Positions 30,924 to 35,434 of a DNA stretch of 35,434 nucleotides are shown in pieces. The translations under genes were made by a program, and so were the position numbers. The stretch spans positions 1-35,434 of the forward strand of contig CAMVFC010000024.1 of the NCBI GenBank assembly GCA_947166655.1, written 5' to 3'. This DNA comes from an uncultured Prevotellaceae bacterium (GTDB lineage: Bacteria; Bacteroidota; Bacteroidia; Bacteroidales; Bacteroidaceae). The notes beneath the pieces are model-generated. The model did not search any database, was not told the origin of the DNA, and saw only the letters and a program-made list of their open reading frames with translations. Position 1 is the first letter of the stretch. The number at the start of each line of letters is the position of its first letter.

Positions 30924-31997
30924 CTACGGGACAATAATCATCTTTTTTCCGTCTTTGACAATGATTCCTTTCTGACCGTTACCAACCTTCATCCCATTCA
31001 TGGCATATCCGTGGGGAGCCTCGCCCGCAGAGACGGTCTTCATGGGATGTACGCCAGAGGTGCCTCCGTCGACTTCTACGCGGATGCTTCCCGTGAGGTT
31101 GCGGATATTATCGGTACCCTGCGTGGCCTGACCGAGAATATAGAGTCCACTGTAGCGACTAGCTGCACCGTAGTACAGCACGACGTTTCCCCAGGGCGAG
31201 AACAGCGCCAGCGTCCCGACCGGACAGTCCCCCTCGATACAGTCGGCATCATAGCTGACAGCCGTAGGAGTATAGAAGATCTTCTCGTTGTTTCCGTAGT
31301 CCTCCACCTTCACATCCAGGGGAAGCATCTGATAGAGCGACTTGGCGGCAGTGGTCTCGTTTAACGCGAAGACGACGGTGTTCGTGCCATCGGAAACCCG
31401 TATCTTCATCCCATCCGTGGCACCCTTGTCCGTAAAGTTGATTTTTTGCAGCCATTCGCTGATGAGCGAGGCCGCATTGCCGACCTGCGAGGAGCGAATC
31501 CACAGGCTCTGACCGTAGTAGACTCCGTCGGGAACCTGTCGGTGGCAGTCTGTTTCCACGCCGCTGATGCCGCTGCTGGCACTCGAAACGATCAGTCCGA
31601 TGTTCTTGCCGGCCATCTGAGCGCCGTAGTTGAACAGGAAGGTCTGCATCGGGGCTGCCATTTGGCTCCACCACAGCGGAGTGACGACGATGATGTTCTG
31701 ATAGTCGCTCAGCGAGATGTTGATGGGGTCGATGGCGGGGTAGCTCGCGGCATCGTTGGGGTTCGCCTTGATGGCATTGAGCAGTTGCTTGCCGAGCGCA
31801 TAGTTGTTCGCCTCGTAGCGCAGGCCTTTCTCTGCGGGCTGAATCTCCAGCACGTCGGCCGTCATCTGATTTGTTAGTGCATGGGTGATGGCCTTGCAGT
31901 TGCCCGTGTAGCTGTAGTAGACCACCAGCGTCTTTGCCTGAAGCGCCGCAAGGAAGGCGTTCAGCAGCAGGGCGATGAATAGGAGTGTTTTCTTCAT
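30924..31997 (-). CDS. Exported flavodoxin-cyclophilin-like fusion protein
   Basis: 357 residues from ATG 31997 (track start 32009 is GTG). Residues 1-21 are a Sec signal ('LLFIALLLNAFLAALQA'). Residues about 22-185 are a flavodoxin_4-type domain with the FMN phosphate loop 'YYSYTGNCKAIT' and 'VVTPLWWSQMAAPMQTFL'. Residues about 200-315 are a cyclophilin-like beta barrel ('MKIRVSDGTNTVVFALNETTAAKSL', 'GTLALFSPWGNVVLYYG'). The tail 'GYAMNGMKVGNGQKGIIVKDGKK' resembles C-terminal segments common on secreted Prevotella/Bacteroides proteins. A flavodoxin outside the cytoplasm is unusual: FMN would have to be taken up in the periplasm or carried through. Last gene of a three-gene operon, 16 bp behind the cupin-CMD gene. 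Confidence 0.85.
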   Translation of the reverse strand: MKKTLLFIALLLNAFLAALQAKTLVVYYSYTGNCKAITHALTNQMTADVLEIQPAEKGLRYEANNYALGKQLLNAIKANPNDAASYPAIDPINISLSDYQNIIVVTPLWWSQMAAPMQTFLFNYGAQMAGKNIGLIVSSASSGISGVETDCHRQVPDGVYYGQSLWIRSSQVGNAASLISEWLQKINFTDKGATDGMKIRVSDGTNTVVFALNETTAAKSLYQMLPLDVKVEDYGNNEKIFYTPTAVSYDADCIEGDCPVGTLALFSPWGNVVLYYGAASRYSGLYILGQATQGTDNIRNLTGSIRVEVDGGTSGVHPMKTVSAGEAPHGYAMNGMKVGNGQKGIIVKDGKKMIIVP

Positions 31998-32013
31998 AGT
32001 TGCAGTCACAATT

Positions 32014-34683: not shown

Positions 34684-34727
34684 TCTTCGTAAACGATTTA
34701 AGATGTCATTTTTTATATTAGACGGCA

Positions 34728-34735
34728 CAAAGATA
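34728..34735 (-). promoter_or_regulatory. -7 promoter element for the exported three-gene operon
   Basis: Minus-strand TATCTTTG, a perfect TAnnTTTG match about 45 bases before the ATG at 34683. The nearest upstream TTG on that strand is 27 bases away, too far, so the promoter may need an activator. Confidence 0.6.
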
Positions 34736-34887
34736 CTGCAGATTTCCTGTTTGCATGTTAATCAAATCACGGATTGTTCAACCAAAATCACTGAATCTGA
34801 TCTAATGTACGAGCGAAGCAGACGTGCGGGAATTCAAAAACAGAGGGCATAATTAGACACATGAGACGAAGGGGATTGACAAAAGAA

Positions 34888-34919
34888 AAACTGCGACGAG
34901 GTGTCGCAGTTTCTTTTTG
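34888..34919 (-). terminator. Intrinsic terminator, best read on the minus strand
   Basis: AAACTGCGAC (34888-34897) and GTCGCAGTTT (34903-34912) are perfect 10-base arms with a 5-base loop. On the minus strand it is followed by TTTTCTTTTG, a U tract; on the plus strand by CTTTTTG, so it can work both ways. On the minus strand it ends the transcript of the 34989-35114 peptide ORF and shields the amidohydrolase promoter. Confidence 0.85.
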
Positions 34920-34936
34920 CATAGCATTTACCCCAA

Positions 34937-34976
34937 CCCTCCCCATCGCTTGCTGCCAGCATACCGATGGGGAGGG
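34937..34976. repeat. Perfect 12-bp inverted repeat
   Basis: CCCTCCCCATCG (34937-34948) and CGATGGGGAGGG (34965-34976) around a 16-base loop. It lies just past the stop of the small peptide ORF and just before the intrinsic terminator. Confidence 0.85.
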
Positions 34977-34988
34977 GCACTATTGACG

Positions 34989-35114
34989 TTATTCCCACTC
35001 GTCCCACTCCACTTCGCCGCGACCGCGGACACGGGCAGGGCCGCTGCCAACACCACCGTAACCGATGTCGGCATTGCCGTCGACATTACTTACAGTGCAG
35101 AGCAAGGTGAGCAT
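34989..35114 (-). CDS. Short Gly-rich peptide with acidic Trp C-terminus, possibly 5'-truncated
   Basis: 41 codons from ATG 35114 to TAA, too short for the ORF track. It reads 'MLTLLCTVSNVDGNADIGY' then 'GGVGSGPARVRGRGEVEW' and ends 'DEWE'. This pattern (a short hydrophobic head, an 'xDIGYGGxGxGPARV' middle and a W-D-E-W end) resembles short peptides I have seen in Prevotella and related genomes, which normally carry 15-25 more N-terminal residues beginning Met-Lys-Lys. Here the frame upstream stays open for only eight codons and meets TAA inside the palindromic repeat, so the original start may have been replaced by that element. Third codon positions are rich in G/C as in neighbouring genes, and two hairpins including a good terminator follow on the same strand. 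Function unknown; expression unproven. Confidence 0.5.
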   Translation of the reverse strand: MLTLLCTVSNVDGNADIGYGGVGSGPARVRGRGEVEWDEWE

Positions 35115-35126
35115 TAGAAATGTTCG

Positions 35127-35344
35127 AAGAACCGCAGATTAAACAGATTCCGGACTCTCCCCCCCGCCCTCCCTAAAGGGAGGGAGCAGTTACTTGTAAA
35201 AACAGAGGACGTGGTAATCCTGCTCTTGTTTGGTAACCGCTCCCTCCCTTTAGGGTGCGAGGAAGACGGGACTGAGTGTTCCGTCTGGACTCGTTCGGGG
35301 GAGAGTCCAGGGAGAGTCCGGAATCTGTTTAATCTGTGGTTCTT
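35127..35344. mobile_element. 218-bp nested palindromic element (MITE-like)
   Basis: Outer arms 35127-35160 and 35311-35344 are inverted copies with 33 of 34 bases matching (both contain CAGATTAAACAGATTCCGGA). Inner arms 35171-35193 and 35233-35255 match at 22 of 23 bases. Further hairpins are CCCTCCCT-AA-AGGGAGGG (35168-35185) and CTGGACTC/GAGTCCAG (35285-35310). No ORF or transposase. I see no clear target-site duplication. One inner segment is shared with the 28463-28543 palindrome. Confidence 0.7.
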
Positions 35345-35347
35345 TGT

Positions 35348-35434
35348 CACTTTTGCGCAAAACTCTTGGCACTTTTCGTGAAAACTCTTGACACTTTTGG
35401 TCAAAACCCTTGGCAGTTTCGGTCGAAACCCTTA
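35348..35434. repeat. 22-bp tandem array running off the right edge (4 units visible)
   Basis: Units begin at 35348, 35370, 35392 and 35414, exactly 22 bases apart, each reading roughly CACTTTT-nnnn-AAAACYCTTGR. The core of each unit is itself a short palindrome (TTTTGCGCAAAA, TTTTCGTGAAAA, TTTTGGTCAAAA, TTTCGGTCGAAA). The fourth unit is cut by the window end, so the total number is unknown. Confidence 0.9.

Follow-up and report, generated by a model that had tools for sequence, protein, structure and literature searches.

A 41-codon open reading frame at a Prevotellaceae contig end, best read as the fused remnant of a companion-peptide gene from tail-bearing surface-protein loci

Near the end of a contig from an uncultured Prevotellaceae bacterium, an open reading frame (ORF) of 41 codons, stop codon included, occupies positions 34989-35114 of the minus strand (translation MLTLLCTVSNVDGNADIGYGGVGSGPARVRGRGEVEWDEWE) and raises the question of whether it is a very short gene or what is left of a longer one. 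The window, the whole stretch of 35,434 nucleotides analysed, is identical with the contig (C24). A sequence-only reading had located the ORF exactly and offered both answers: a very short peptide gene, or the remnant of a longer Prevotella-type short peptide whose N-terminus had been displaced by a repeat. Our joint reading, that the ORF is a dead remnant and that the intact family from which it derives consists of cargo-matched cytosolic partners of surface proteins, is one that we consider rather likely.

Homologues of the 41 residues do exist elsewhere. A protein search of the genus matched the ORF in 67 of 139 genomes at E ≤ 1, with best values of 2e-11 (G100), 3e-11 (G103) and 5e-11 (G089), and a profile built from the relatives recovered it in turn (E = 2.4e-14, profile positions 21-59 of 60, window positions 34992-35102). 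Matches of this strength are not due to chance and, judged by them, the ORF is real and has true homologues over most of its length. Profile match and DNA alignment together place the peptide-family core at 34992-35096 (minus strand), with its nearest relatives in the same three genomes. The family members matched are complete genes of 55-70 codons, most of which begin, about 20 residues further upstream, with the Met-Lys-Lys start that had been anticipated; the idea of a longer ancestral peptide is thereby borne out. The last ~33 codons of the ORF form part of this family. Its core pattern YGGGGxGxARVR..W[DE][DE]W is present in the window copy, whereas the N-terminal pattern MKKxYxxPxxxVVxLQ is not: the first ~20 residues of the family are missing and signal-peptide sequence stands in their place, so that the window copy is a remnant rather than an intact member. 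Over 31 codons, dN/dS against the two nearest relatives is 0.26 and 0.31, small-sample support that suggests a coding ancestry.

The intact peptides, of 55-70 amino acids, follow the pattern MKKxYxxPxxxVVxLQxxxIICxS...GNxxxxYGGGGSGPARVR...WDDW. A family profile made from 27 relatives found members in 123 of 139 genomes (species) of the genus, in 189 of 399 genomes of the taxonomic family and in 18 of 30 genera; single genomes hold up to 15 copies, and the window's own genome has 13 at E ≤ 0.01. Named carriers are mostly uncultured Bacteroidales, Prevotellaceae and Prevotella metagenome-assembled genomes, several of them carrying rumen or reticulum in their names. For close pairs of copies dN/dS is below 1 in nearly all cases and mostly 0.2-0.7; the family is therefore protein-coding. 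By inspection the peptides have no evident signal peptide. Scans against Pfam, NCBIfam and PHROGs returned no match, nor did a profile search of the PDB. AlphaFold predicts the peptide alone to be unfolded (mean pLDDT 60.6), and the model thus lends no structural support for binding.

Upstream of the ATG, the frame of the ORF reads ..TAA TCT GCG GTT CTT CGA ACA TTT CTA ATG. The TAA at 35139-35141 closes it, with no alternative start codon between, and lies, as had been noted before, inside a palindromic element. This repeat of about 220 bp (35122-35346) cuts off the 5' end of the ORF. Its edge ..GGTTCTTCGAACA was found again in L002, L003 and other copies, followed by different sequence, and a 301-bp query that takes in part of it hit the genome 60 times, several hits lying close to contig ends. 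Copies of the repeat measure ~100-220 bp, with a core CCCTCCCTAAAGGGAGGGAGC...GCTCCCTCCCTTTAGGGAGGG and arms ACAGATTAAACAGATTCCGGACTCTCC; further ones include L002, L003, L004, L005, L006, L007, L008 and L153. The close relatives G130 and G100 lack the palindrome at this place; there the peptide gene is preceded, at 13-16 bp, by the stop codon of the gene before it. Beyond the repeat, at 35344-35433, a tandem array of about four copies of a 22-bp unit (TTGGCACTTTTGGTCAAAACCC) forms the very end of the contig, which breaks off within it, 90 bp past the repeat; similar sequence adjoins repeat copy L004. Because the contig ends in this array, the true region upstream of the ORF lies outside the assembly.

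On the 3' side, the hairpin and intrinsic terminator reported earlier are present on the same strand. The first, a GC-rich hairpin of 12 pairs at about 34936-34976 (CCCCTCCCCATC...GATGGGGAGGG), is common in sequence to the window copy and the relatives' peptide genes; the second, a terminator-like hairpin with a T tail (34886-34914), is shared by several relatives. The pair has a folding energy of -51.3 kcal/mol (z = -5.98, 0 of 200 shuffles). An Rfam scan of 34700-35434 gave sub-threshold chance matches only.

Between the repeat and the peptide core lie 27 nucleotides (35095-35121, minus strand, ATTTCTAATGCTCACCTTGCTCTGCAC) that supply the ATG now used and match the start of surface-protein genes bearing a C-terminal tail. 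The stretch is identical at 25 of 27 positions in G130:C41 and at 24 of 27 in G087 (L044), the next-best matches covering ≤15 nt. In G130:C41 the matched stretch holds the codons of MRIKQLFLMLALLCTIVQGAWA, and both matches sit in the signal-peptide start, at the 5' end of a very large tail-bearing gene with a family peptide downstream. The uncollapsed order in G130:C41 is MRIKQLFLMLALLCTIVQGAWA... (a frame of 2367 codons) ...WYTLDGRKLQGKPTQRGIYINNGKKTIIK, stop, 16 bp, MKKTYLQPTMMVVRLQQ.... In the window ORF the signal-peptide fragment and the peptide core agree in reading frame. At the DNA level, relatives align well with the window copy beginning at about TCTGCAC..TGTAAGT, across the entire core and across both 3' hairpins, and poorly further upstream. 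That ATGCTCACC might instead correspond to ATGCTGCAG, the codons for VVMLQHQ in the family itself, was considered and rejected, the ungapped 25/27 match to the signal peptide being far better. Since the fragment sits between repeat and core, at least two joins are needed. The repeat by itself did not displace the N-terminus, and on this point the earlier proposal was wrong or incomplete.

These alignments make a deletion scar, in which a signal peptide is joined to a peptide core and the palindromic repeat cuts the 5' side, the best reading of the ORF. The ancestor would have consisted of two genes, one for a large exported surface protein and, behind it, one for a ~60-residue companion peptide. 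A deletion would have brought the first signal-peptide codons of the surface protein directly before the final ~33 codons of the peptide gene, with the frame preserved; the join may be placed at a shared TCTGCAC or at TGT. The repeat would have joined the 5' side afterwards or simultaneously, taking away the promoter and the start codon. We infer this deletion origin from the sequence, no intact allele of the same locus having been seen.

Two other readings of the ORF have to be weighed at this point. The join may be an assembly error, since it sits among repeats close to the contig end; the end within a tandem array and the state of the genome, an incomplete draft of 140 contigs, speak for such a chimeric artefact. 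Against it, the joins share few identical bases, presumably below an assembler's k-mer length, the core runs unbroken into the correct 3' hairpins, and damaged copies occur in other genomes (G100:C48:5611 lacks the MKK start and L211 is frameshifted), which makes decay of family genes ordinary. We regard an artefact as unlikely. The other reading, that the ORF in its present form works as a short peptide gene, could draw on its open frame, on the low dN/dS of its core and on the retained terminator. However, no TANNTTTG promoter motif was found on the minus strand between the ORF and the contig end, no Shine-Dalgarno sequence precedes the ORF, the conserved N-terminal part is missing, the start codon is borrowed from another gene, and dN/dS integrates time before the truncation. 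The very short peptide gene is disfavoured by these observations, and we hold it to be very improbable. As far as the sequence allows a judgement, the ORF is probably not expressed and is most likely a nonfunctional remnant.

The intact family members have a recurrent place in their genomes. Peptide genes usually lie 10-240 bp behind genes whose products end in ..VRAFVLNFGDDEATGI..(W)YTLDGRKLxGKPTxxGIYINNGKKVVIK, a tail in which the third position from the end also varies (KKVxIK). Such a gene lies just upstream on the same strand in 41 of 62 family copies; many of the others have no usable upstream sequence or a tail gene that is apparently frameshifted or broken. In a set of named genomes that partly overlaps the 62, the count is 22 of 32. 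Conversely, a tail profile (A2) located tails at 92 places of the own genome, and a small M..K.Y..P peptide gene lies behind 20 of 28 tail genes examined there. These 28 were the highest-scoring of the 92, and tails linked to a peptide had served to build the profile; for both reasons the true fraction among all 92 is probably lower. As a control, loci of the same genome have a peptide behind 24 of 33 tail genes versus 4 of 71 other genes; some of these loci had been selected for holding peptides, and of the four non-tail cases two are family peptides whose preceding gene has a diverged or different end. The window copy itself is not directly behind a tail gene, only the 27-nt signal-peptide fragment and the repeat preceding it before the contig end. 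Elsewhere in the window, a flavodoxin-like ORF (30924-32009, minus strand) carries a weak tail (MNGMKVGNGQKGIIVKDGKKMIIVP, E = 4.2e-6) and has no family peptide behind it.

Where the two genes are separated by ≤30 bp, a Shine-Dalgarno-like motif precedes 25 of 34 peptide starts versus 5 of 208 starts of long ORFs at the same loci, a sign that the two genes are translated in a coupled manner from one mRNA. Tail and peptide also vary together: distances between tails correlate with distances between peptides over 20 pairs of the own genome (Mantel r = 0.47, 0 of 2000 permutations) and over 58 pairs (r = 0.45, 0 of 500), a signal that joint duplication, rather than contact, could equally produce. 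Beyond the tail, the upstream proteins are diverse and include GLUG repeats, an M6 peptidase plus endonuclease I, DUF285 and InlB-type repeats; the shared tail is thus their common factor. These associations suggest that intact peptide genes and tail genes form an undescribed module of a protein plus a companion peptide. No description of it was found in the open-licence literature or in the protein libraries searched.

It could be argued that the peptide is a by-product and that what is conserved is the 3' end of the mRNA for the surface protein, where a reinitiation ORF plus hairpins would stabilise or terminate the transcript or would offer a patch of homology through which surface-protein genes undergo gene conversion with one another. 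The 3' hairpins are indeed common at the DNA level to distant copies, and it is in the tail and the 3' end that proteins of otherwise different make-up agree. Yet amino-acid motifs are kept despite synonymous change, and the downstream sequences differ in many copies, and we judge this explanation quite unlikely.

In position, in motif and in the machinery present in the genome, the tail looks like a Type A sorting tail of type IX secretion. It shares with Type A tails its place at the extreme C-terminus, the pattern ..Y.L.GR......G.YI..GKKV.+K and a genome that encodes SprA, the type IX translocon; the upstream surface proteins, by inspection, have a Sec-type signal peptide, as Type A cargo does. 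SprA_N (PF14349) was found in 52 of 61 genomes of the genus, the own genome included (E = 1.2e-222). Across the taxonomic family, SprA is present in 177 of 189 peptide-positive versus 127 of 210 peptide-negative genomes (Fisher p = 7.5e-16, genomes counted without regard to phylogeny), and 12 peptide-positive genomes, G100 among them, have no SprA match. G100 (the RUG13359 genome) is rated 100% complete and holds 9 peptide copies. The tails differ from established Type A tails in matching no type IX model in Pfam or NCBIfam scans up to E = 10, where only the unrelated DUF7631 appeared, at 0.057. The type IX Type A C-terminal domain is represented by NCBIfam TIGR04183 and by gingipain tails. 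Compared with solved structures, the tail profile matched an arabinanase tail (4kca, E = 4.9e-9) and 7jvi (E = 1e-4), while gingipain tails were reached at E = 0.36 and 0.63. AlphaFold modelled only the last ~30 residues of the tail well, so that a fold search with that model, which gave no significant hit, was uninformative. Because the curated models miss the tail and the gingipain tails score so weakly, we term it T9SS-like.

In the mechanism that we propose, the peptide gene would be co-transcribed with, and often translationally coupled to, the preceding gene of a tail-bearing surface protein. The cargo-matched peptide, remaining in the cytosol, would bind the tail or the nascent cargo and keep it competent for Sec and type IX export, and such a partnership would lead tail and peptide to diverge together. 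The analysis shows that the genes are adjacent, that Shine-Dalgarno motifs are enriched, that the peptide co-varies with the tail and co-occurs with SprA, and that it is under purifying selection; co-transcription, binding, chaperone action and the use of the type IX route by the tails are what we infer. A partner role is the simplest and most likely reading of a peptide that has no evident signal peptide, is predicted to be unfolded alone, appears to be translated next to its cargo and co-varies with the tail. In its general form, the proposal that, in Prevotella and related genera, many type IX-like surface proteins have a dedicated, co-evolving cytosolic partner of ~60 residues made from the same mRNA is put forward tentatively.

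The main rival of the cytosolic partner holds that the intact peptides are precursors of exported, perhaps modified peptides, each with a leader conserved at the N-terminus and, C-terminal to it, a variable core that a processing exporter would release, and merely sharing a transcript with the surface protein. Such an architecture would fit the peptides' predicted disorder, their numbers in each genome (up to 15 matches) and their pattern of conservation, the N-terminal ~24 residues (M-K-x-x-Y-x-x-P...S) being best conserved and the remainder varying strongly among paralogues. But the C-terminus is likewise conserved (A-R/V-K plus a Trp/acidic end), NCBIfam, a library expected to include curated precursor families, gave no match, and neither the recurrent tail on the preceding gene nor the tracking of tail type by peptide type is explained. 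We consider precursors possible, if somewhat unlikely.

For the cytosolic partner, the closest precedent in logic is the Type B cargo of type IX secretion, which is encoded with a downstream PorP/SprF-like shuttle gene, as in sprB-sprF of Flavobacterium johnsoniae (PMC12618676). In both cases a gene directly downstream of the cargo gene is matched to a particular cargo tail. SprF-like shuttles work after translocation, at the outer membrane (PMC12618676), whereas the partner here has 55-70 residues and no evident signal peptide, and the tails are more Type A-like; Pfam and NCBIfam scans of the peptides gave no match to the PorP/SprF family. A term search of a review of type IX effectors (PMC10202324) did not find a downstream companion peptide. 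The family resembles other unannotated small proteins of gut Bacteroidales in being short, multi-copy and without an assigned function, but differs from them in its fixed place behind tail-bearing genes.

The fragment in the window is debris, but it led to a conserved two-gene module that curated protein libraries have overlooked, probably owing to the shortness and variability of its second gene. Dedicated partner peptides, if they exist, would add a new layer of cargo handling to the type IX route and, as partners of cargo, would offer a handle on the export of Prevotella's many large surface proteins. A second peptide subtype was also observed in the own genome (L170-L198). Its C-terminus is either VKE...SYNVWDDDWSN or a short hydrophobic stretch such as VKESIFSTLMP, and the tails that accompany it are of the IFNLAGQRVQKAQRGLYIQNGKKVLVK type.
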